Virus record (IMG/VR): IMGVR_UViG_3300010885_025551
Span: 1-21,973 of that record
Strand: one strand, 5' to 3'
Origin: a virus
DNA: 21,973 nucleotides
Under the pieces are notes generated by a model that searched no databases, was not told where the DNA came from, and was given only the letters and a program-made list of their open reading frames with translations. Shown here in pieces: positions 651 through 17,329 of the stretch. Each line of letters starts with the position of its first letter. The stretch's first letter is position 1. The position numbers and the translations under genes are program-made.

Positions 651-679
651 CACAAAAGCCCGGTTGTAGAGACCGGGCT
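651..679 (-). terminator. Rho-independent terminator after the SET gene
   Basis: On the minus strand a perfect 7-bp stem, AGCCCGG / CCGGGCT with a 9-base loop (657-679), is followed directly by TTTTGTG. The stem begins inside the TAG stop codon of the SET gene (678-680). Stem strength plus the adjacent T-run make this a convincing intrinsic terminator for the leftward transcript, separating the HNH gene and its neighbour from the main operon. Confidence 0.75.
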
Positions 680-1187
680 ATAGCACTTCGTTTGCTTCCA
701 CAGACGTAGCGCCCCCCAGCTTGGCGGCGGCGAGTACGTGCTGCATCGCCCACCCCTGCTCTGCGTACCGGACCTGGGTTTCGGCCGGCAGCGTGTCAAA
801 ATCGCGGATCGTGCCACGGCATCGCGAGGCGCCGCACTGGCAGTCGTGCATCTCCCAATGCCGCTCCAGCATTGTTGTGCTGTAGTCGATAGTTAGCTCT
901 TCGTCAGCGTCAATGTGCCGAGCAGCTACTAGCCATAGATCAGAGTTTATGTAGCAGTTTGGATCGCAGGAGTGATTGGTATAAAGACCTGGAGATTTGG
1001 GATTGAGGTATAGGTTTTGTCCAATTTGAAGCGCATTGCCTTCGTGGTCTAGCTGGCACTGCTCGTCGAAGCTAAGGTGTTCGCCTTCAAACTGCAACAG
1101 CAGTTTCCCCTTAGGTACTGCTTCCACGGCAAATATGCCATGGCCTAGTCGGCACTTTCTGACCTTGATACAGGGGAAGCGCCTCAT
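678..1187 (-). CDS. SET-domain protein-lysine methyltransferase
   Basis: A 169-residue SET protein expected to transfer methyl groups from S-adenosylmethionine to lysine. Seen: the AdoMet-loop motif G15-H-G-I-F-A, the SET signature NHSCDPN at 71-77, the ELTIDY motif ending at Y102, and a post-SET zinc cluster C116-x-C118-x4-C123-x-G. The combination of complete SET core and post-SET cysteines argues for an active enzyme. I chose the ATG at 1187 because it overlaps the previous gene's stop by 4 bases (ATGA) and the fold starts there; the longer frame adds an unrelated Arg-rich extension. The N-terminal half (about 930-1150) is more AT-rich than the surrounding genes, suggesting recent transfer. 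The target (host or phage protein) is unknown. Bacterial small SET proteins are known; in a phage operon this looks like an accessory moron gene. Confidence 0.85.
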   Translation of the reverse strand: MRRFPCIKVRKCRLGHGIFAVEAVPKGKLLLQFEGEHLSFDEQCQLDHEGNALQIGQNLYLNPKSPGLYTNHSCDPNCYINSDLWLVAARHIDADEELTIDYSTTMLERHWEMHDCQCGASRCRGTIRDFDTLPAETQVRYAEQGWAMQHVLAAAKLGGATSVEANEVL

Positions 1188-1378
1188 TGTTGGCCCCCCA
1201 GCTCGGCGGCGATGGCGAGGAGTTTTAAGTGATCTTGCACACACTCCATCATTGGCGCAGCAGCCCGCAGGGCGGCGGCGGCGGCCCGCTGAAGGTGGCG
1301 GCGCGGGGCGTAGTCCATTTCTTGCCATGTGGCATCCAGCACCGCAGCAGCGGCGGGAGAGAGCGGTTGGTCAGTCAT
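1184..1378 (-). CDS. Small hypothetical phage protein, Ala-rich helical
   Basis: A 64-residue protein starting at ATG 1378 and ending with a 4-base overlap with the SET gene start. It is rich in Ala, Leu and Arg (AAAVLDATWQEM and an Arg-Ala block) and is predicted by eye to be mostly helical. I recognise no domain. Its tight packing between two coding genes (1-base overlap upstream, 4-base overlap downstream) supports it being real. Function unknown. Confidence 0.6.
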   Translation of the reverse strand: MTDQPLSPAAAAVLDATWQEMDYAPRRHLQRAAAAALRAAAPMMECVQDHLKLLAIAAELGGQQ

Positions 1379-4051: not shown

Positions 4052-4450
4052 TTAGGTGGAATCGCCCAGCACCATTCGCGCATCCTCAACGCTGCGCACA
4101 ATCCCTGCGCAACCGCCAACGGCGTTGATGTGATCAATGAACTGGGTCTGCTGCGCAGTCGGCCGGCCGGTGGCTGATTTCACCTCCAGCGCCACGAACT
4201 GGGCCACCCGATTGACCACCCGGTAACCAATCAGATCGGAGCTACCAACGCACAGGCCAGCATGGAGCGGGCGGCCCTGGCGGATCACTACATCGCCTGG
4301 CCTGATGGAGTGGGCGACGGCCTGCAGGTTTCCCGGCGTGACCTTGGTGGCTTGGCCTGCCCAGCCCGTGCCGACGTTGTTGCGCCACAGCCTGACCGGG
4401 CCGGAGCCGCAGGCCAGCAGGATGCGCTGTTGGGTGATGTGTTCGCTCAT
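4052..4450 (-). CDS. VRR-NUC domain nuclease
   Basis: A 132-residue stand-alone VRR-NUC protein, a PD-(D/E)XK-type nuclease that typically acts on branched DNA. Seen: LWRNNVG (21-27), GSSDLIG with D72 (69-75), VALEVKS with E89 and K91 (the ExK pair), Q100/Q101 with F104, and GGCAGIVRSVEDA (112-124). This is the usual compact phage form of the family. The ATG at 4450 is my start; an in-frame TTG at 4462 would give the 4-base overlap seen elsewhere in the operon. No strong Shine-Dalgarno favours either. It sits between the NUMOD1-like gene and the RecT-like/SSB genes and likely resolves or trims recombination or replication intermediates. Confidence 0.85.
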   Translation of the reverse strand: MSEHITQQRILLACGSGPVRLWRNNVGTGWAGQATKVTPGNLQAVAHSIRPGDVVIRQGRPLHAGLCVGSSDLIGYRVVNRVAQFVALEVKSATGRPTAQQTQFIDHINAVGGCAGIVRSVEDARMVLGDST

Positions 4451-5094: not shown

Positions 5095-6482
5095 GCCACC
5101 AGCTCCCGAACCCTGGCCTTCCCGCTGCGCAGGCTGCGGGCTGCCATGACGTGCCGTGCCCAGCCGGCGGGGTTCTTCATGTTCCGGCGGCGGCCGATGG
5201 CGATGAGTTCGTCGAGGGTGTTGGCCTGGGCCTGCTCGCGCTTCCTATCTACCTGCTGCACTTCCTCAAGCTCACCGTCCACCGTCTGCAGCTCCCGGCG
5301 CTCAGCCACAAACTCATGGCCGCAGTCGGGGCAGAGCTGTTTGGCGCTGGGCATACAGCTGAAACAGGCAGGGCAGACCTTCACTGATGGCGCCTTCTCC
5401 CGGTCTCGCTTTGGCGTGCCGTCGAGCGTCCATTCCCGCTCCTCCAGGTGGTGTCCCAGCCGGAGCACGTTCCCGACGTGATCCAAGATCACTGCGGTCT
5501 TCCCAGGCTGTGGCCTCAGGCACCGGCCGATCATCTGCAAGTGCAGGCTCACCGATTGCGTGGGCCTGAGCAGGATGCAGCCGGCCACGCTGGGCACGTC
5601 CACACCCTCGCCAATCAACGCGCAGCTGGTAAGCACCTTCAGGCGGCCGGTGCCCAGGTCGCCCAGCAACCGCTCACGGGTCTGGCCGTCCATGGTGCCG
5701 TCGATACTGGCCGCGGCCACGCCATTGCGCTGGAACAGATCCGCCACCGCTTCGGCGTGCGCAATCGAGCAGCAGAACGCAATCGCGGTCTGGCCGTCCA
5801 GATAGCGGCGGTAGTGCGCCAGACAGTCGCCCATGGCCTGCCCGGCCTGCAGCATCTGGCCGGCTTGATTCATATCAAAGTCGCCCATGCGCTTCCGCAA
5901 GCCCACCATTGAAGGGCCTGGTGGTGCCAGCACTCGTGCTGATGCCAGGAATCCCTGCTCGGTCAGCTCGGCCGGCGTTGGCCCCATCACCATCGCCTGA
6001 TACCACTCATTCAGGCCGCGGCCATCGCTGCGGATCGGCGTGGCGGTGACACCCAGCACCCTGGCGCTGGCGCAATGGCTGAGCACTTTGGCCCAGGTGC
6101 CGGCGTTGCTGTGGTGCGCCTCATCCACCACCAGCAGCTGGAAGTAATCCGCTGGTATCCGGTGCAGCCGCCGGGCCAAGGTCTGCACGCTGGCGACCTG
6201 CACCGGCTGGCTCAGGTCCATCGACCGGCCAGCAGCAATCAGGCCATGGCGTACACCCAGGGCCTGAAGGCTGTCGCTCGCCTGTCGCAGCAGTTCCTGC
6301 CGATGCACCAGCACGCAGATCCTGCTGCCCTTGGCCGCGGCCTGCTCGGCGATGTGGCTGAAGACCACGGTTTTGCCGCCGCCGGTGGGAAGGACGAACA
6401 GCACTGATCGGTGGCGTTGGCGATAGGCCTGGCGGATTTCGGCGATGGCCTGGTGTTGGTAGGGGCGGAGGGTGAGGGTCAC
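5091..6482 (-). CDS. SF2 (DEAD/DEAH, RAD25-like) DNA helicase with zinc motif
   Basis: A 463-residue superfamily 2 helicase using ATP to move on or unwind DNA. Seen: Q-motif-like RPYQHQ (6-11), Walker A PTGGGKT (32-38), DEAH box (120-123), TATP (146-149), GEGVDVP (291-297) and QMIGRCLRP (316-324). After the core there is a zinc-ribbon-like CxxC (370, 373) and CxxC (384, 387), then a basic C-terminus. The start is GTG at 6482: a strong AGGAGGT Shine-Dalgarno (6489-6495) lies 6 bases upstream, and the GTG overlaps the upstream stop as GTGA. An upstream ATG at 6518 would lie inside the previous gene. Such helicases in phage recombination modules are thought to remodel replication forks or joint molecules with RecT/SSB. 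Confidence 0.9.
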   Translation of the reverse strand: MTLTLRPYQHQAIAEIRQAYRQRHRSVLFVLPTGGGKTVVFSHIAEQAAAKGSRICVLVHRQELLRQASDSLQALGVRHGLIAAGRSMDLSQPVQVASVQTLARRLHRIPADYFQLLVVDEAHHSNAGTWAKVLSHCASARVLGVTATPIRSDGRGLNEWYQAMVMGPTPAELTEQGFLASARVLAPPGPSMVGLRKRMGDFDMNQAGQMLQAGQAMGDCLAHYRRYLDGQTAIAFCCSIAHAEAVADLFQRNGVAAASIDGTMDGQTRERLLGDLGTGRLKVLTSCALIGEGVDVPSVAGCILLRPTQSVSLHLQMIGRCLRPQPGKTAVILDHVGNVLRLGHHLEEREWTLDGTPKRDREKAPSVKVCPACFSCMPSAKQLCPDCGHEFVAERRELQTVDGELEEVQQVDRKREQAQANTLDELIAIGRRRNMKNPAGWARHVMAARSLRSGKARVRELVA

Positions 6483-7987
6483 ACCGGCACCTCCTGAGGC
6501 AGCTGCATCCCAGGCCATTGCCCACTGATCTGCCCGAGCAAGTTGGTCTTTAGCCAGACCTTGCAGCCATCCCGGCGAGCAGTTTGCACTAGGTCAGCCA
6601 CCCACTCAAACGGCGGGGAGAACGAACTGTTCTGGCCGATGTTCTCCGACTGAGCACCAATCACGATCATGTCAATCCCCTCCAAGGTGGAGAACTTGAT
6701 CGGTTCCAGCAGCGGCTCCAATGACAGCCACTTCACCTTCACCCCAGACACCTTCCGCATGGCTGCCAGGGTTGGCTCCGCTCGGTGCTGCTCATCCACC
6801 GATGCGCCGATCCATCCGCTGGCCGGCAGTTGCAGCCGGTCGTACCGCTGCGGAAACTTCGTCAGGTAGAGGTACTCCCACTGCGGGTTTGCCACTGTGG
6901 AAGCCACCACCTGATCGATCCATTCCTGAGGCACCCAAGCGCCAAATAGGTCGGCCATGGAGCAGACGAACACGCGGCCATGCGCCGGATCTGCAGCTGC
7001 TCGGCCGGGCACCGGGGTGTTGGCTGGCGCCTCCAGCCGTTCGTGGTGAAACAGTGGCGTGAACCCGGCCGGGTAGTAAGCAGCCATGTCGCGGCTGGTG
7101 GCGATGGCGCGGGCGTAGCAGTAGTCGCAGCCGTGGTTGCAGCCAGTGACCGGGTTCCAACTCCACATGGCCCAGCCAATCTCCGTGCCCTTCTGCTGGT
7201 TGAAGGTGGCCTTCCCCTTCGGCTTCGGGTACTCGTAGGGATTGCCCTTGTGGTCGAGAAGGGTGATCGCCTGCTTTTCATCCACCTTCGGAGTCTCAGG
7301 CGTCGGGCGGCTGGCTGCGACCTGCCGTTCACGCTGCTGTGCCTCGCGGTGGGCCCGGTCTAGGGCCATGGTCCCGGCCTGCACCTGGGGGAGAAGATCG
7401 GGGGCCACCTTCTGGACGCGTGCGGCCTGCTCCACAGCACGTGGACTGGCTCCAACGGCCTTAGCGGCCTGGGCGGCGACCTTGCGCTGCTCAGATGCAG
7501 CCTGCTTTGCCGACTGATCAATCAGAGCAGGGGCGGGTGCGGCAGTGGGAGGCAATGAAAGGCCGCGCAGATCTGCGCTGGCTTTCGGTGCAGGCCGGCC
7601 AGGCGCAGCAGATCTGCCCGCTTCGGCCATGCGCTCCTTTGCCGCCGGCTGCAGCAGCTCGCGGACCTTCAACGCCACCACAGCACGTTGGCCTGGGTTC
7701 AAGTGCCGCCGGTGCAGGTTGGCGCTGATGCTGAACTGCACCGGATCAGTGCCCAGGTACTCATCGATCAGCACCTCCTGATTCGTCTCGTAGCAGGCCA
7801 TCAGCCTGTTGCGACCGTCCAGCAGAGTGCCATCAGTCCAGATCGTGATTGGCTGCGCCAGGCCGCGTTCCTTTACATCAGCGCAGAGATCGCGGAACTC
7901 GTCACCCTCCACCATCGGGAACAGATCGGCCGCCGGGTGGATGCCCTTGATCTCTGGGTAATGGCGCAGAACTTCAGACCAATCCAT
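6479..7987 (-). CDS. ParB-like nuclease domain fused to three-Cys (Gp37/Gp68, DUF5131-like) protein
   Basis: A 502-residue two-domain protein. Residues about 10-110 are ParB/Srx-like: LLDGRNRLMACYE (DGRNR at 57-61) and ANLHRRHLNPGQRAVVALKVRELL. A charged Ala/Pro-rich linker (about 111-255) with a helix-turn-helix-like AKAVGASPRAVEQAARV follows. Residues about 260-495 match the phage Gp37/Gp68 (DUF5131) family: WSWNPVTGCNHGCDYCYARA holds C283-x3-C287-x2-C290, the radical-SAM-like cluster motif, followed by VFVCSMADLFG, YLYLTKFPQRY, WIGASV and WLSLEPLLEPI. The known partner of three-Cys proteins is TcmP, and a TcmP-like gene lies directly upstream with a 1-base overlap (TGATG). Start: ATG at 7987 with GGAG 6 bases upstream (GTG at 7990 also possible). 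The chemistry is not established; nucleic-acid modification is my inference. Confidence 0.85.
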   Translation of the reverse strand: MDWSEVLRHYPEIKGIHPAADLFPMVEGDEFRDLCADVKERGLAQPITIWTDGTLLDGRNRLMACYETNQEVLIDEYLGTDPVQFSISANLHRRHLNPGQRAVVALKVRELLQPAAKERMAEAGRSAAPGRPAPKASADLRGLSLPPTAAPAPALIDQSAKQAASEQRKVAAQAAKAVGASPRAVEQAARVQKVAPDLLPQVQAGTMALDRAHREAQQRERQVAASRPTPETPKVDEKQAITLLDHKGNPYEYPKPKGKATFNQQKGTEIGWAMWSWNPVTGCNHGCDYCYARAIATSRDMAAYYPAGFTPLFHHERLEAPANTPVPGRAAADPAHGRVFVCSMADLFGAWVPQEWIDQVVASTVANPQWEYLYLTKFPQRYDRLQLPASGWIGASVDEQHRAEPTLAAMRKVSGVKVKWLSLEPLLEPIKFSTLEGIDMIVIGAQSENIGQNSSFSPPFEWVADLVQTARRDGCKVWLKTNLLGQISGQWPGMQLPQEVPV

Positions 7988-8949
7988 CACAGCTCCACCC
8001 CACGGGCGAACTCATCCTTGGTCAGAAACAAAAACCGCTCCAGCTGATAGAAGCCGCCTGGATCATCTTTGCGCCAGACCACCTGGGGCGGTGCTGTGAT
8101 GCGCTTCTCCAGTTTCTTCGCAGCCCTTATGCACTCTTGGGTGATTTGCTCCCTCCATTTGGTTGGCCCAGTGATCAAGTAGGCCCATTGATCAGCGCCA
8201 CCAATAGAGAACAGGCAGGCGTCATGCCATGTCTGAAGTAGTGATTCGCAAAGCACTTCAACACGCAGAAACCACTCACGCCGCTTTTCTTCGTCGATCC
8301 GCTTTAGCCCGCCGACGTTGCAGCCCAAGGTTGAAAGAGACGTGGTGAACTTTGGGCATGACTGCATGAACTCACCAGTAAGGCACCAGTCCTCGACGTG
8401 GTTTGGATCGTTGTAGATAAAGCAGGTTGCACGCCGGTGAATACCAGGCGGCTTGAGATCCGAAGCGTTCTGATGGCGATACTCGACAAGTCCTTGTCCT
8501 GAGCCCTTGAAGTGGATGCCAGGCGCTTTGGTCTGCCATTCGGCAGCCGAAAGCCACTCAGATGTGTTCCGCAACAGCGCGGCATGAGTCGATGCTTGCT
8601 TCTCACAGGCAATCATCTGAACCGGAGTGGTGGATCGCTGCAGCAGCCAGTCCATGTGCTTTAAGAAGATCCCTGGCGAGCAACCTTCGGTGAAAGGCCG
8701 CTGCCTTTCGGAAAACAAGTCCTCTTGAGTTCCGGAGACAAACGGCACGCCATCACCGGCGGTGAGGTCGTACAGAAGCGCCTCTCTAACGGGAAGGATT
8801 CGGCGGCTCACGACTCCAACTTCTCGGCCCAGCAGGCTGTTGAGCAGGTAGTGCTTGCACGGGGTCACCCCGGATTTTCCGGTTGACGGCCTTCGGGCTT
8901 GCTGAACTGAAGCGGCCATGGACGCGGGCTTGCGGTGGTTCCCGAGCAT
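7987..8949 (-). CDS. Three-Cys-motif partner (TcmP-like) protein, methyltransferase-like
   Basis: A 320-residue protein, first gene of the leftward operon. Seen: a basic N-terminus, KHYLLNSLL (32-40), YDLTAGDG (60-67, resembling the AdoMet-binding D-x-x-x-G-x-G loop), IACEK with E116 (possible ribose-binding acid), YRHQNASDL (157-165) and YNDPNH (179-184, resembling the D/N-P-P-Y site of base methyltransferases), then ADQWAYLITGP. The layout fits the three-Cys-motif partner family TcmP, known to lie beside DUF5131 proteins, as here (1-base overlap). I rate the family match as moderate because no search was possible. The start ATG at 8949 has a GGGG-rich leader; an internal ATG at 8919 is possible. 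A substrate is not known. Confidence 0.55.
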   Translation of the reverse strand: MLGNHRKPASMAASVQQARRPSTGKSGVTPCKHYLLNSLLGREVGVVSRRILPVREALLYDLTAGDGVPFVSGTQEDLFSERQRPFTEGCSPGIFLKHMDWLLQRSTTPVQMIACEKQASTHAALLRNTSEWLSAAEWQTKAPGIHFKGSGQGLVEYRHQNASDLKPPGIHRRATCFIYNDPNHVEDWCLTGEFMQSCPKFTTSLSTLGCNVGGLKRIDEEKRREWFLRVEVLCESLLQTWHDACLFSIGGADQWAYLITGPTKWREQITQECIRAAKKLEKRITAPPQVVWRKDDPGGFYQLERFLFLTKDEFARGVEL

Positions 8950-9192: not shown

Positions 9193-11346
9193 ATGCCCAC
9201 GCTCCTAGAACAGCTCCAGGAGCTTCCGCTCTCCTGGGGTCTTGTTGCGGTCGATGGCGCTAAGCGTCCCTACCAGGCCAACTGGCAGGCCAACCCACTC
9301 ACCAAGGAGCAGGCCGCAGCCGAGATCACAGCTGGCCGGGCCAAGGCCATTGGCGTGATCGCAGGGCCTGTGTCGGATGGGCTGCTGTTTCTGGATCACG
9401 ACGGCATCAGCGCCACAGAACAGCTGGAGAAGCTCGGCATACCACCGCGCAGCCTTCCGAAAACTGCAATCTGCACCTCAGGCCGTGATGGGCGTTTCCA
9501 AGCCCTGTTCACCGTCCCTGAGCGCTACTGGGACAGGATGCGCAATCGCCGTGTCTTTGATACCGGCAAGGTTGACGCTGACGGCAAAGCCGAAAATCTC
9601 GACCTCAGGTGGAATCGCCATCAGTCGGTAGTCATCGGCGCGCACCCGATCACCGGCGCATATCGCTGGATCAAAAACCGATCACCCGCAGAGGCTGGCA
9701 TTGCCGAAGCGCCTGAAGCATTGATCCAACTTCTGATCAATGACCCTCAGACCGCATCAATACCGCTCCTGACCCAGGCCACGGCGGCCATGCCTGACAC
9801 ACTGCCGCTGCTGGAGTTCATCACCCGCGACTCGCGCGCACTGGTTGAAACCGGCGGCACTCCCGGCCAGTGGAATGATGATCAGCTGAAACTCGCCCTT
9901 GACCTACAAGGCACAGAGGACTGGATCATTGCCCAAGGCCATCGGCCAGATATCTCGGCTCGCGATGCCTTTGAGCAGCACATCAACGCCGCACGCGGCA
10001 AGGCGCCGGACTTCGATGCAGGAAGGGCACGCAAACGATTTGATGGCGCCGCAGCCCACAACCCAAAGCCGGCCACACCCGCCGACAAACTTGAAACCCG
10101 GCTGAAATACCACACCCGCACCGAGCGGCCAGTACTTGCCAAACGGCCTACACCAGCATCTGCGGCGGCCCGTGACGACGATGCAGCACCGATGCTCAGC
10201 AAACCAACCAAGCTGGAAGCCGGCGAGCTGCTGGCCAGGCTGCGCAAGCAAGCCGGCGACACTCGCATCAGATACAACCGCTTCAGCCAGCAGATTGAAA
10301 TGGATGGCGCCGTCATTGAAGGCGTTGAGCGCTTCTACCTCTCACTGGCTGAGCAGGGCTACAAGGTCTCCAAAGAACTTGCCGTTGACTGCCTGATTCA
10401 AGTCGCACACGAAAACCCATACGATCCCGTCCGCCTCTACCTTGAGCACGTTGCCGCCACCGTCAAGCCGGCCTACATCGATGGGCTGGCCACTGCATAC
10501 CTCAGGCCCGAAGACGCCGCACTCAACCAAGCCACCATCTACGACCACATGATCCGCTGCACCCTCATCGGTGCAGTGCGCCGGGCCTTTGAGCCTGGCT
10601 GTAAGCACGACACAGCCTGCGTGCTCATGGGTGATCAGGGCGCCCGCAAATCCTCGTTCTGGGAGTGCCTAGGTGGCAAGTTCTTCTCCGATGCGCTCGG
10701 CGACATCAGCAGCAAAGACGACCTCATGGTGCTCCACCGCTCCTGGATCATGGAGTGGGCTGAGATCGATCACATCATGGGACGCAAACAGGCCGGCCAG
10801 GTCAAGGCCTTCTTATCCCAGGCGACTGATCTATTCCGCGTGCCCTATGGCAAGGCCACTGAGGCGTTCCCACGTCGCGGCATCATCGTTGGCAGCACCA
10901 ACCGATCGACCGGCTTTCTGATTGACGACACCGGCAACCGCCGCTTCTGGGTGATCCCGACCACCTGCACGGAGTCCAACCCAATCGACACACCAACCCT
11001 CATGGCTGAGCGCGATGCCATTTGGTCCGCTGCTGTTCATGCCTACCGCAACGGAGAACGGAACTACCTGCCGGCTGATCTGGCCAACATCGTGAGCCAA
11101 GAGAATGAGTCCTACCAGGTGGAGAATCCATGGAAAGCGCCTATTGCTGATTGGCTCAACGCGGCAAGCAATCAAGGCGTTGAGCTGACCTCTGAAATCA
11201 TTCTGAGCAAAGCCATCGTCAAGCCCATTGAGAGGCAGACCAAGGTCGATCAGATGCAGGTGGCCGCGATCATGCGCGACATGGGTTACGGCAAGGTCAG
11301 GCGCGCCATTGGCGGCCAGCAGCGCTGGGTATTCATCAAAGGCTGA
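9193..11346 (+). CDS. PrimPol/VirE-type primase-helicase
   Basis: A 717-residue replication protein. The N-terminal part (about 10-180) matches the bifunctional primase/polymerase fold: LLFLDHDG with D68 and D70, CTSGRDGRFQALF (94-106), and LRWNRHQSVVIGAHPITGAYRW (138-159) with the conserved H143/H151. The C-terminal part (about 440-640) matches the VirE (virulence-associated E) P-loop family: Walker A GDQGARKSS (480-488), then RSWIMEWAEIDHIMGRK (517-532), FRVPYGKATEAFPRR (548-562), GSTN (567-570) and a D-x-x-G-x-R-R-F sensor (579-586). The role is to open the origin and prime phage DNA, like phage P4 alpha. An array of short repeats follows directly downstream, so the protein may recognise it. 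Length fits fused PrimPol-helicases. The C-terminal 70 residues may carry the origin-binding domain (inference). Confidence 0.9.
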   Translation: MPTLLEQLQELPLSWGLVAVDGAKRPYQANWQANPLTKEQAAAEITAGRAKAIGVIAGPVSDGLLFLDHDGISATEQLEKLGIPPRSLPKTAICTSGRDGRFQALFTVPERYWDRMRNRRVFDTGKVDADGKAENLDLRWNRHQSVVIGAHPITGAYRWIKNRSPAEAGIAEAPEALIQLLINDPQTASIPLLTQATAAMPDTLPLLEFITRDSRALVETGGTPGQWNDDQLKLALDLQGTEDWIIAQGHRPDISARDAFEQHINAARGKAPDFDAGRARKRFDGAAAHNPKPATPADKLETRLKYHTRTERPVLAKRPTPASAAARDDDAAPMLSKPTKLEAGELLARLRKQAGDTRIRYNRFSQQIEMDGAVIEGVERFYLSLAEQGYKVSKELAVDCLIQVAHENPYDPVRLYLEHVAATVKPAYIDGLATAYLRPEDAALNQATIYDHMIRCTLIGAVRRAFEPGCKHDTACVLMGDQGARKSSFWECLGGKFFSDALGDISSKDDLMVLHRSWIMEWAEIDHIMGRKQAGQVKAFLSQATDLFRVPYGKATEAFPRRGIIVGSTNRSTGFLIDDTGNRRFWVIPTTCTESNPIDTPTLMAERDAIWSAAVHAYRNGERNYLPADLANIVSQENESYQVENPWKAPIADWLNAASNQGVELTSEIILSKAIVKPIERQTKVDQMQVAAIMRDMGYGKVRRAIGGQQRWVFIKG

Positions 11347-11349
11347 GGC

Positions 11350-11398
11350 CTTGCCAACCTGCCCGTTGATGGTTGGCAAGTTGCCAACCTGTTTTTTT
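11350..11398 (+). terminator. Terminator with competing hairpin (attenuator-like) after the primase gene
   Basis: Three copies of one arm lie in a row: CTTGCCAACC (11350-11359), GGTTGGCAAG (11371-11380) and TTGCCAACC (11381-11389). The second and third form a stem GGTTGGC/GCCAACC with a 5-base loop followed by TGTTTTTTT: a Rho-independent terminator for the plus strand. The first and second form a 10-bp stem with an 11-base loop, which would remove the terminator's left arm. The two structures are mutually exclusive. Confidence 0.7.
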
Positions 11399-11612
11399 GT
11401 CTTGCAATGAGACTAATCCGAGAAGCATGAGATTTGCTAACCTTGCTGACCTAGGTTGGCAACCCCAAACCCGCTGCGCTGCAAGGCGTCTTCTAACCTT
11501 GCTAACCTTGCTAACCTATTAGAAAGAGTAGTAAGGATAGAGGGGTAGAAGGGGGTATATGGCGTTTTCCTGCCTCCTAAGGAAAGGTTGGCAAGGTTGG
11601 CAAGGTCAGCAA
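11351..11612. repeat. Iteron array, eleven copies of TTGCYRACC
   Basis: Plus-strand copies start at 11351, 11381, 11434, 11443, 11499 and 11508; minus-strand copies (GGTYRGCAA) at 11371, 11454, 11586, 11595 and 11604. Variants are TTGCCAACC, TTGCTAACC and TTGCTGACC. Several are strictly tandem with a 9-base period (11434/11443, 11499/11508, 11586/11595/11604). A cluster of plus copies (11499-11516) faces a cluster of minus copies (11586-11612) across about 69 bases. A degenerate extra copy, CTTCTAACC, sits at 11490-11498. Such density cannot easily be chance and points to a cooperative protein-binding array. Confidence 0.85.
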
Positions 11613-12720: not shown

Positions 12721-12721
12721 G
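12620..12721. repeat. GTTTAAG boxes upstream of small terminase
   Basis: Exact GTTTAAG at 12620, 12703 and 12715, all on the plus strand. Two are CGTTTAAG. They stand out in a GC-rich genome and cluster only before the terminase start. Confidence 0.5.
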
Positions 12722-13311
12722 TGCTGATCGGCTTCAGCGATTTCGCCAGGCTGAAAAAAGTTTCAGCTGCAGCCGTGACGGCTGCGTGCAAGTCGCGGAT
12801 TAAGGAAGCAATTGTCGAGCACAACGGCAAGCGGATGCTTGACCGCGACAAGGCGCTGGAATTGTGGGACCGCAACACCAAGCGCAACGGGTCTGAGCGG
12901 GTGTCTGCAGGCGCCAAAAATCGTGACCGCCGAGAGCTGGAGCCTGATGTTGCTGGTGCGCCGCCACCGCCGCCAGTGCATGTGCCCGACGCCACCGGCG
13001 ACCAGCTCAAGAGCCTGATCATGGGGCTACCAGAAGATCAGATCCCAGGCCTTGACGTAAGCCGCGAGCGTAAGGAGCACTACAACGCCGAGCTGGCCCG
13101 GCTGCAAGCGTTGAAGGAACGCGAAGACCTGGTGACCACCGCCGACGTGAAGCGCATGGCCAGCACGCTGGGCCGGCAGATCCGCGACAACATCCTGGCG
13201 ATTCCAAATCGCGTGGCTCCGTTGCTGGCCGCAGCGCGAGACAGCGCCGAGGTGCATCGACTGCTGAGCGAAGAACTATCCACAGCGCTGCGGGTGTTGT
13301 CCAATGGCTGA
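12721..13311 (+). CDS. Terminase small subunit, Nu1-like
   Basis: A 196-residue protein placed directly before the large terminase, with an 8-base overlap. An N-terminal helix-turn-helix (IGFSDFARLKKVSAAAVTAACK, about 3-24) fits site recognition on phage DNA. After a Pro-rich linker (PPPPPVHVP) a long helical segment (REHY-type helices about 117-185: RKEHYNAELARLQALKEREDLVTTADVKRM then GRQIRDNILAIPNRVAPLL) matches the Nu1/DUF1441-like small subunit pattern. It should bind the packaging site and recruit the large subunit. Start: GTG at 12721; the Shine-Dalgarno is poor and the start overlaps a GTTTAAG box, which hints at autoregulation (inference). Confidence 0.75.
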   Translation: MLIGFSDFARLKKVSAAAVTAACKSRIKEAIVEHNGKRMLDRDKALELWDRNTKRNGSERVSAGAKNRDRRELEPDVAGAPPPPPVHVPDATGDQLKSLIMGLPEDQIPGLDVSRERKEHYNAELARLQALKEREDLVTTADVKRMASTLGRQIRDNILAIPNRVAPLLAAARDSAEVHRLLSEELSTALRVLSNG

Positions 13312-15172
13312 CGGCTCGCTGCTGTACCGGGAGTCTCTGCTGGCTGCGCTGGCGCCACCATCGGCAACGACGGTGAGCGAGTGGGCGGACCAGCATCGAA
13401 TCCTGAGCGGCAAGGGAGCTGCGGAGAAAGGCCCCTGGCGCACGGAGCGCACGCCGTACCTGCGCGAGCCGATGGACTGCCTCAGCCCAAGCAGCTCAAC
13501 GCGCCGCGTGGTGCTGATGTTCGGCAGCCAGATGGGCAAGACCGAGGTGATCTTGAACTGGCTGGGTTCAATCATCGACCTATGGCCTGGGCCGACGCTG
13601 CTGGTGCAGCCAACGCTCGACATGGCCAAGCGCCTCAACCGCCAGCGGCTAGATCCGTTGCTCCGCGAGACACCGCAGCTGGTAGAGAAGATGGCACCGG
13701 CGCGCAGCCGCGACTCAGGAAACACGATGTTCCTGAAGGAATTCGACGGCGGCCTGTTTGTGCTGACCGGCGCCAACAGCGGCAGCGGTCTGCAGTCGAT
13801 GCCAGCCGCCTACCTAGCGGCCGATGAGGTGTCGAGCTATCCGATGGAAGCCGACGACAAAGGCGACCCACTGGAGAACGCCGAAGCGCGCACCAGTACG
13901 TTCCCCATGGGCAAGGTGCTGATCACCAGCACACCCGGCACACGCGGCGCCTGCCGCATTACGCAGGAGTTTGAGAGCAGGTCCGATCGGCGCCTGTATC
14001 ACGCATGGATGCCCTGCTGCGGCGCCAACGAGGTGATCCGCTGGCGCGAGCATATGGTATGGGATAAGTCAGATGGTGATGTGTTCTGCCAGTGCCCGGC
14101 GTGCGGCGAGCGAGTGGCTCAGTACCACAAGCAGCAGATGCTGAGCAAAGCGATTTGGACACCTACCGCCAAGGGCGATGGCATGACCGCAGGCTTTCAC
14201 CTGCCTGGATGGTATGCGCCACTGGGCTGGACCAGCTGGGAGCAGATCCGTGATGAGTTCCTGCGCGCCAAGGCTGATCCGCTGCTGCTGAAGGGCTGGG
14301 TCAATAAGCGCGCCGCTGATGCCTGGGAAGACGAGAGCCTGGCCAAGGTCAGCGCTGATGGCCTGATGGCACGGGTGGGCGGCTACGACCACGGCAGCTG
14401 CCCGGCTGGTGTGCTGGCGGTGGTGATGGCTGTGGACGTGCAGGACACCTGGCTAGAGGTGAGCGTGTGGGGTTACGGCCGCGGCGATGAAGCCTGGCGG
14501 ATCTGGCACCAGAAGATTGACGGCGATCCTGGGCAGGATCACGTCTGGCAGCAAGTGACCACGATCCGCGAGATTGCCTGGCCGCATGAAGCCAGCGGCA
14601 CGATGAAGGTAATCCGTTGCGCAGTGGATACCGGCGGCCACTACACCGGCGAAGCGTATGAATACTGCCGCCGGTACGCAAAGGATGGCGTCACTGCAAT
14701 CAAAGGATCAAGCCAGCGCAACACCGCAGTGCTGGGCAAGGGCACAAAGCAGGACGTGAACTACAAGGGCAAGATCATCAAAAACGGCGTGACGCTCTAC
14801 ATGGTTGGCACCCATGCAATCAAGCGGACGATCTACAGCCGGCTCAAGATTGAAGAGCACGGGCCAGGATTCATTCACTTTGACAACGCCACCACCGATG
14901 GCTACTTGCAGGGCCTGACCTGCGAGCGACTGCAGCCGCGCTACGTCAAAGGGTTTCAAGTGCTGGAGTGGGTCAAGCCAAGCGGCGCTCGCAATGAACC
15001 GCTCGACCTGAAGGTGTACTGCCTGGCAATGCTGGAACTGCTCAAGCGCCGCTACAACCGCGCCACGATGTGGGACCAGCTTGAGGCCGGCCTAACCAAG
15101 GCCGCACCCGAGACCACCAGGCGCCGCACTTCTCCTGCATCACGCCCAGGCGGATTTGTTTCTGGCTGGTGA
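13304..15172 (+). CDS. Terminase large subunit, GpA family
   Basis: A 622-residue packaging motor and nuclease. Seen: the ATPase Walker A-like FGSQMGKTE (73-81), Walker B-type LAADEV (171-176) followed by the S-S-Y-P-M-E...G-D-P-L-E-N-A-E-A-R-T segment typical of GpA, a coupling-motif-like ITSTPG (207-212), a zinc-binding set (C238/C239 and C262-x-C264-x2-C267), and nuclease acids in AVDVQ (D378), AVDTGG (D442) and LDLKVYC (D568). Length agrees with lambda gpA (641). It pumps DNA into the prohead and cuts the concatemer. It overlaps the small subunit by 8 bases, as expected for a translationally coupled terminase pair. Strong assignment. Confidence 0.93.
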   Translation: MADGSLLYRESLLAALAPPSATTVSEWADQHRILSGKGAAEKGPWRTERTPYLREPMDCLSPSSSTRRVVLMFGSQMGKTEVILNWLGSIIDLWPGPTLLVQPTLDMAKRLNRQRLDPLLRETPQLVEKMAPARSRDSGNTMFLKEFDGGLFVLTGANSGSGLQSMPAAYLAADEVSSYPMEADDKGDPLENAEARTSTFPMGKVLITSTPGTRGACRITQEFESRSDRRLYHAWMPCCGANEVIRWREHMVWDKSDGDVFCQCPACGERVAQYHKQQMLSKAIWTPTAKGDGMTAGFHLPGWYAPLGWTSWEQIRDEFLRAKADPLLLKGWVNKRAADAWEDESLAKVSADGLMARVGGYDHGSCPAGVLAVVMAVDVQDTWLEVSVWGYGRGDEAWRIWHQKIDGDPGQDHVWQQVTTIREIAWPHEASGTMKVIRCAVDTGGHYTGEAYEYCRRYAKDGVTAIKGSSQRNTAVLGKGTKQDVNYKGKIIKNGVTLYMVGTHAIKRTIYSRLKIEEHGPGFIHFDNATTDGYLQGLTCERLQPRYVKGFQVLEWVKPSGARNEPLDLKVYCLAMLELLKRRYNRATMWDQLEAGLTKAAPETTRRRTSPASRPGGFVSGW

Positions 15173-15764: not shown

Positions 15765-17329
15765 GCAAGCGCAAGAAGTCACAGCAGGCCCCGGCCGCAC
15801 CACGCCGCCGCGCCTACGAGGGCGCCATGGTCTCGCGGCTGACCGCTGACTGGGTAACCAGTTCGACATCAGCAGACGCTGAGATTGATGGCAGCTTGGT
15901 TCGGCTGCGCAATCGGGCGCGGCAACTCGTCAGAGATAACGGCTACGCCCAGCAGGCGCTGCGCTGCATTGTCTCCAACGTGATTGGAACCGGCGTCAGG
16001 ATGCAGGCCCAGGTGCCGGCGACGGCCAACGGCGGCAGGCCAGACACCGCAATCAACGACGCCATTGAACGGCAGTGGGCACACTGGTGCCACGCCGACA
16101 CCTGCCACGCTGCCGGCCAGTTGAGCCTGCAGGAGATAGCCCGGCTGGCATGGCGCGCCATGGCTGAATCTGGTGAGGCGTTTATCCGACTGGTGCCTGA
16201 AGCCATGGGCGCCGGCATTGTGCCGCTGGCTTTGGAGATCCTTGAGGCCGATTTGGTCGATGAGGGTAAAACATCTGGGCCGGAAGCTGATGGCGGTGAG
16301 TGGCGCATGGGCGTGCGCGTCAACCGCTGGGGCCGGCCTACTGCCTACCGCTTCAGGACACGGCACCCGGGCGACGTGTCGGGATCAGTGGGTTATTCAG
16401 TGGTCGATGTGCCGGCTGATCAGGTAATTCATCTGCGCCGCATTGAGCGCCCCGGCCAGACCCGAGGCGTGCCATGGTTTGCTGCAGCAATCAAGGGCCT
16501 GCATCACCTAGCCGGATACCAAGAAGCCGAGGTAGTGCGAGCGCGCGCTGCCAGCAGCCTGATGGGATTTATCACCAGCCCCGAAGGCGAGCTGATTGGT
16601 GATGACGTTTACGACGCCGAGCGCGTCAGCAACTTTGAGCCTGGGGTTTTCAAATACCTAGCACCTGGTGAATCGGTCAGCGTGCCTCAACTCGACGCGC
16701 CTGACGGGCAGTTTGAACCATTCCTGCGGGCCATGCTGCGCGGCGTTGCGGCATCAACCGGCTGCAGCTTTGAGCAGGTCAGCAATGACTACAGCCAGAG
16801 CAACTACAGCTCAAATCGAATGAGCCGCCAGGATTCGATTGAGATGTGGAAGGGTGAGCAGCAATACGCCATTGAGCACTTCTATCGACCGATCTTCCAA
16901 AGGTGGATGGATGCAGCTGTTGGCGTTGGCGATCTGTCGCTGCCCAACTACGACACCCTGCGCGACCGCTATCAAGCGGTTCGCTGGTATCCGAGAGCCT
17001 GGGGTTTCCTTGATCCAAAGGTAGAGATCGGCGCTTACAAGGATGCTGTCCGCTGCGGCTTTATGACCCAGGCGCAGGTTGTAGCTGAGCAGGGCGGCGA
17101 CCTGGCCGAGCTGATGCGCGACCTGGCGGCAGAGCGAGAGATGGCCCAGGAGCTGGGCCTGACCCTTGATATCGACGCTGGCAAGGTCTCAGGCGCAGGG
17201 CTGACGCAGGCCCGACCAGTGGGATCAATTATCCCGCAAGACCCCTACGCGCCAGATAACACGGCAGCCGATGCCAGCAGCGATCAACCAGACGAGCCTG
17301 ACGACGACGACCTGGAGGACTTGAGCTGA
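15761..17329 (+). CDS. Portal protein, lambda family
   Basis: A 522-residue portal (lambda gpB-type, pfam05136 style). Seen: RNRARQLVRDNGYAQQALRC then IVSNVIGTGVRMQAQ (about 50-84), QVIHLRRIERPGQTRGVPWF (about 222-241) with GLHHLAGYQEAEVVRARAASS, and the diagnostic NYSSNRMSRQDSIEMWKG (about 347-364) near the C-terminal third, then IFQRWMDAAV. The C-terminus is acidic (DEPDDDDLEDLS). It forms the ring at the portal vertex for DNA entry and tail attachment. It shares the TGATG stop-start junction with the capsid gene, as lambda-type head genes often do. Confidence 0.92.
   Translation: MSKRKKSQQAPAAPRRRAYEGAMVSRLTADWVTSSTSADAEIDGSLVRLRNRARQLVRDNGYAQQALRCIVSNVIGTGVRMQAQVPATANGGRPDTAINDAIERQWAHWCHADTCHAAGQLSLQEIARLAWRAMAESGEAFIRLVPEAMGAGIVPLALEILEADLVDEGKTSGPEADGGEWRMGVRVNRWGRPTAYRFRTRHPGDVSGSVGYSVVDVPADQVIHLRRIERPGQTRGVPWFAAAIKGLHHLAGYQEAEVVRARAASSLMGFITSPEGELIGDDVYDAERVSNFEPGVFKYLAPGESVSVPQLDAPDGQFEPFLRAMLRGVAASTGCSFEQVSNDYSQSNYSSNRMSRQDSIEMWKGEQQYAIEHFYRPIFQRWMDAAVGVGDLSLPNYDTLRDRYQAVRWYPRAWGFLDPKVEIGAYKDAVRCGFMTQAQVVAEQGGDLAELMRDLAAEREMAQELGLTLDIDAGKVSGAGLTQARPVGSIIPQDPYAPDNTAADASSDQPDEPDDDDLEDLS

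Follow-up and report, generated by a model that had tools for sequence, protein, structure and literature searches.

A dense array of 9-bp iterons at positions 11351-11612 is very probably the replication origin of a phage, at which the iterons would be bound by the winged helix of the primase-helicase encoded just upstream, in the manner of the Pri-Rep proteins of SaPIs and PICIs. An origin read by the upstream primase-helicase was the best-supported interpretation because the array lies 3′ of the gene, its repeat word co-varies with the C-terminal domain of the protein, and both are exchanged together. The window, i.e., the whole stretch analyzed here, is the complete 21,973-base virus record IMGVR_UViG_3300010885_025551, which is probably a genome fragment. 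It encodes a gpA-type terminase, a lambda-type portal, and capsid genes, indicating that it comes from a tailed phage. Among the isolates of the phage collection, only Synechococcus phage S-LBS1 was close, with 90% identity in the primase-helicase. As inferred from S-LBS1, the host is most likely among the freshwater picocyanobacteria.

The word TTGCYRACC matched exactly at 12 positions in the window, 11 of which were within the array; the only other copy was at 16777. By chance, a mean of 0.80 and a maximum of 3 matches per window were expected (100 dinucleotide shuffles). Plus-strand sites started at 11351, 11381, 11434, 11443, 11499, and 11508, and minus-strand sites at 11371, 11454, 11586, 11595, and 11604. 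A preliminary description of this DNA had reported eleven exact sites in 262 bases and in both orientations, with strict 9-base tandems, and exact counting confirmed both the sites and the tandems (11434/11443, 11499/11508, and 11586/11595/11604). The array begins with three single copies of TTGCCAACC (site 1, 11351-11359, plus; site 2, 11371-11379, minus; site 3, 11381-11389, plus), followed by the plus-strand tandem TTGCTAACC TTGCTGACC (11434-11451) and a minus-strand TTGCCAACC (11454-11462). Next come two tandem copies of TTGCTAACC on the plus strand (11499-11516), with a degenerate version, TTCTAACC, directly in front (11491-11498). This plus pair opposes a minus-strand triple (11586-11612) at a separation of 69 bp.

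Between the opposing clusters lies an AT-rich, purine-rich stretch (11517-11566, plus), which we propose as the melting site on the basis of stability and skew scans and of analogous stretches in relatives. Of all 60-mers in the window, 11491-11550 was the least stable, and the most purine-skewed 45-mer of the window started at 11518, in agreement with the purine-rich, partly AT-rich spacer that had been described earlier. Comparable weak or purine-rich stretches adjoined the iterons in relatives; by our reading of the relatives' sequences, the purines were on the opposite strand in the TGCCCTACC class. Alignment of clade relatives further revealed a conserved non-iteron block, TTTTCCTGCCTCCTAAG (11568-11584, plus), within which TTTCCT-CCTCCT was invariant in 7/7 aligned relatives of the window's clade. 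Sequence inspection and folding also showed that sites 2 and 3 form an intrinsic-terminator-like hairpin followed by seven T (11371-11398, plus). Sites 1-3 (11351-11398) permit two alternative hairpins, 1 with 2 or 2 with 3, of which the second precedes the seven T, an attenuator-like arrangement. The window gave no Rfam match and no tRNA.

Since the record of the window's virus is likely partial, the genome-wide word count was made on the complete S-LBS1 genome. The array layout was the same as in the window, but the word was TGCCYAACC, which occurred 15 times, always within the array. The concentration of the word in the array, which the preliminary description had made a test of its proposal, was thus seen in both phages. 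The word of the window was found once in S-LBS1, at 7600 and outside the array, and the window contained zero copies of the S-LBS1 word. The two arrays therefore differ by a concerted change in which the word was switched at nearly all sites, while the spacer was still recognizable (56/75 aligned columns). Cumulative GC skew, also proposed earlier as an indicator, is suggestive only and carries little weight: its minimum in S-LBS1 fell next to the array, at 34,063, but the curve was not a clean V, with a maximum only ~5.6 kb off round the circle. The S-LBS1 record does not annotate the array, and neither "repeat" nor "skew" appears as a word in the S-LBS1 paper (PMC6157547).

IMG/VR scans yielded 162 distinct loci with enough downstream sequence (161 related sites plus the window). 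An array of some word 3′ of the gene exceeded all 10 dinucleotide shuffles in 139 of the 162 loci and did not surpass them in the other 23. In the first set, at least 7 copies were found in 48/78 loci, compared with 1/300 for 360-bp segments drawn at random from these contigs. The repeat word was clade-dependent (TTGCCAACC, TGCCYAACC, TTTCCAACC, TGCCCTACC, CGTCCTATC, and others), and C(C/T)NACC, preceded by variable bases, was common to many of the words. Such a word alone is not specific, because many of the matches listed for the pattern TTGCYRACCTTGCYRACC over viral contigs were chance occurrences or coding repeats (e.g., L063 and L086). A first scan of genome contigs found no relative, and a second returned 15 loci, mostly distant. 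In one distant locus, L053, a TTGCCAAC(C/G) array was observed at 10665-10878, 3′ of a primase gene with 30% identity (contig GC 43%). Among 13 distant VapE phages, a small sample hand-chosen for host diversity, arrays of unrelated words lay directly 3′ of the gene in 7 (RcAqua, StAB, QT1, PS3, GaryLarson, IPP50, and V16). The other 6 were without an array at that place: in Haddon it was displaced further downstream, in S-ESS1 it was weak, and in EMB2, FoX2, phiLNTR3, and PT1 no array was found.

The gene immediately upstream of the array (9193-11346, plus) encodes a 717-aa protein, the proposed origin-binding initiator, in which domain searches identified PrimPol (PF09250, 5.9e-16) and VapE-like helicase (PF05272, 1.5e-62) domains, in line with the VirE/PrimPol-type primase of the preliminary description. 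The sole PDB match for the whole protein by sequence was PriRep1 (7pds; phmmer, 3.8e-25, residues 392-610). The C-terminal domain, from the PW647 region to the end (11128-11343, plus), was modeled by AlphaFold2, from an input alignment without S-LBS1 (L005), as helices followed by a two-stranded hairpin, the wing (pLDDT 85.4). The predicted wing, KVRRAIGGQQRWVFIK, is encoded at 11287-11340 (plus) and includes a Gln before RW (codon 11320-11322, plus). Structure comparison of this model places the domain in the winged-helix fold class. Its match to the C-terminal part of SaPI PriRep1 (7pds_B; Z 6.3, 72 residues) was tied with other, unrelated winged helices, and the specific likeness is suggestive. 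Foldseek against the PDB gave no match for the domain at E 0.001 or below, and its profile against PDB sequences returned nothing useful. The P4 alpha domain was not among the structural matches listed, which excludes nothing.

We then compared word distances with protein distances. The correlation was 0.552 for the C-terminus but dropped to 0.158 when the helicase domain was used and to 0.044 with the N-terminus (N = 69). Given the helicase, the partial correlation with the C-terminus was 0.549 (N = 69; p = 0.0005, the permutation floor), and the repeated analysis with N = 138 gave 0.389 (p = 0.001). Within the C-terminus, the top-scoring part was the wing segment GGQQRWVF. As judged from these sequence comparisons, the word tracks the C-terminus of the primase, not its helicase domain, its N-terminus, or TerS. 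A direct exchange was seen between L021 and L013/L014/L015, whose DNA was 79-100% identical over 2 kb upstream, 50-61% in the final 200 bp of the gene, 38-45% in the array, and again 81-89% in the 100 bp beyond it. In this alignment, the C-terminal domain and the array are swapped as a single cassette between well-conserved flanks. Furthermore, the identity between L020 and L024 and between L021 and L024 stopped right after the array, so the gene and array form one module. The C-terminal codons adjoin the array, and linkage alone could yield part of the correlation, a confounder that sequence cannot remove by itself; function is favored by the top score of the wing and by an exchange boundary that lies close to the start of the domain. 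The layout in relatives, the co-variation, and the cassette exchange all support the earlier proposal that this array is a likely origin.

The wing residue before [RK]W was also compared with the base immediately preceding C(C/T)NACC, and Leu corresponded to T and Gln to G. Loci with Leu had T in 23 cases and 1 tie, and loci with Gln had G in 29, T in 5, and C in 1, with 3 ties. On the helicase tree, 4 independent pairs differed in the predicted direction, 0 were opposed, and 1 showed no difference, which was not significant (p = 0.125). L026, with Leu (G0, T5), and its relatives L029 and L030, with Gln (G2, T5), look like intermediates. We tentatively suggest, as a possibility somewhat short of even, that the winged-helix domain and the array are an exchangeable specificity cassette in which the wing reads the word by this Leu-T/Gln-G rule. 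If so, co-infecting phages would fall into replication compatibility groups according to their words.

At the proposed origin, copies of the primase-helicase would bind the 9-bp iterons through the C-terminal winged-helix domain and assemble as helicase rings on the two opposing clusters. These rings would melt the AT-rich and purine-rich DNA that lies between the clusters and alongside them, and the PrimPol domain, or a recruited primase, may then start synthesis.

Several other functions of the sites were considered. The sites might instead be regulatory operators and a terminator, acting on transcription of the primase or of the late genes and having no part in an origin. The terminator-like hairpin of sites 2 and 3 with its seven T would fit this, as would a tandem pair that one clade carries just ahead of the primase start. 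Such same-word pairs were observed at L035 7976, L043 9364, L047 10147, L094 5779 (plus), and L081 7551 (minus), and they possibly serve autoregulation. However, autoregulation is compatible with an origin, and the eleven sites, opposing clusters, and conserved weak DNA exceed the needs of a terminator. Next to the array of L007 and of L013 stands a separate terminator hairpin, and since other relatives have their own terminator in this way, the one at sites 2 and 3 looks like reuse of iterons. A purely regulatory role is therefore regarded as unlikely. A location near terS is common for cos and pac sites, and in the window TerS, at 12721, and then the gpA-type TerL come after the array, so the repeats could be a packaging site to which the small terminase subunit, whose gene is 1.1 kb downstream, would bind. 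Nevertheless, the array was linked neither to terS nor to DNA termini. It moves with the primase, its distance to TerS ranged from 1.1 to 4.3 kb among loci, and the TerS family did not follow the word, as S-LBS1-type TerS occurred with three words and window-type TerS likewise with three. Moreover, PhageTerm placed the S-LBS1 termini at 25,643, ~8.6 kb from the array (PMC6157547), and we consider a packaging site very improbable. Least probable is a centromere-like partition site or an attachment site. A ParB-like N-terminal match is present in the window (6479-7990), and S-LBS1 encodes an integrase. Yet S-LBS1 keeps the array and has no annotated ParB-like gene, its att sites were proposed by the authors at 4147 and 31,346 (PMC6157547), and the word tracks the primase C-terminus.

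The preliminary description had likened the array to the origin of phage P4, and its idea of an origin recognized by a primase-helicase is supported. P4 alpha similarly unites primase and helicase in one protein with a C-terminal winged helix, by which the origin repeats are bound (summarized in PMC4234260), but it has a Toprim-type primase, whereas the present protein has an N-terminal archaeo-eukaryotic PrimPol (PF09250) and a VapE-type helicase. The Pri-Rep systems of SaPIs and PICIs (SaPI5 PriRep1 and EcCICFT073) are the better analogue, because they share the VapE-type helicase (7pds, 3.8e-25), an origin directly 3′ of the gene, and two iteron sets around a stretch that melts easily; their C-terminal domain reads the origin, and a primase is fused in some (PMC7581432, PMC6092414). 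SaPI Rep recognizes iterons directly downstream of its gene via this domain (PMC7581432), and in PICIs the two iteron sets flank an AT-rich region and pri-ori segments replicate plasmids (PMC6092414). The window likewise combines a PriRep-homologous VapE helicase, a predicted winged-helix fold, and 3′ iteron sets around an AT-rich stretch. In contrast to the helper-dependent satellites, the present phages are tailed and encode capsid, portal, and terminase themselves, as found in the window, and they use other iteron words, with iterons partly reused as a terminator.

In SCCmec Cch2, a self-loading helicase, the isolated C-terminal domain binds a putative origin of direct repeats 3′ of its gene (PMC7581432), as we infer for the present protein, but Cch2 is from a staphylococcal element and has a separate CCPol-MP primase and only three iterons. 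The pRN1 protein ORF904 also joins a PrimPol, a helicase, and a C-terminal winged helix, and the essential origin region is directly 3′ (PMC4234260). That origin is a large stem-loop without iterons, unlike the iteron array here, and the suggestion of the pRN1 authors of a stem-loop origin for the whole protein type (PMC4234260) does not fit. No description of this array was found in the open-access literature on cyanophage iterons and VapE-phage origins. Older work on phage origins reportedly exists, e.g., on Streptococcus phage Sfi21. As for the motif family, which had been called new, the word is specific to its clade, but arrays of this kind are known from SaPIs and PICIs. The kind of origin is thus already known; new to us are this member in tailed phages, the cassette swap, and the possible wing-residue-to-base rule.

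These results locate the likely origin in cyanophages related to S-LBS1, for which no description of the origin was found, and suggest a simple origin search for metagenomic phages, in which the DNA directly 3′ of VapE-type genes is inspected. They also bear on the statement that such origin organization is confined to PICIs, since these phages have it as well, and on publications in which the VirE gene of phages is regarded as auxiliary (PMC8424206). In addition, ~140 natural initiator-origin pairs provide material for how a winged helix reads an origin.

Some further observations were made. The S-LBS1 record (L005, MG271909) ends inside the array, and its last 120 bp repeat 34268-34387, which is an assembly effect or a real duplication. 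In the window, a phage-encoded SET-domain protein was found at 678-1328 (minus; PF00856, 3e-12). The ParB-like match at 6479-7990 (minus) is joined to DUF5131; the corresponding stretch of S-LBS1 is annotated as a DNA methylase and a second SF2 helicase. Despite the 90% identical primase, TerL of the window (13304-15172) and of S-LBS1 (603-2504) were only 35% identical, indicating strong mosaicism.
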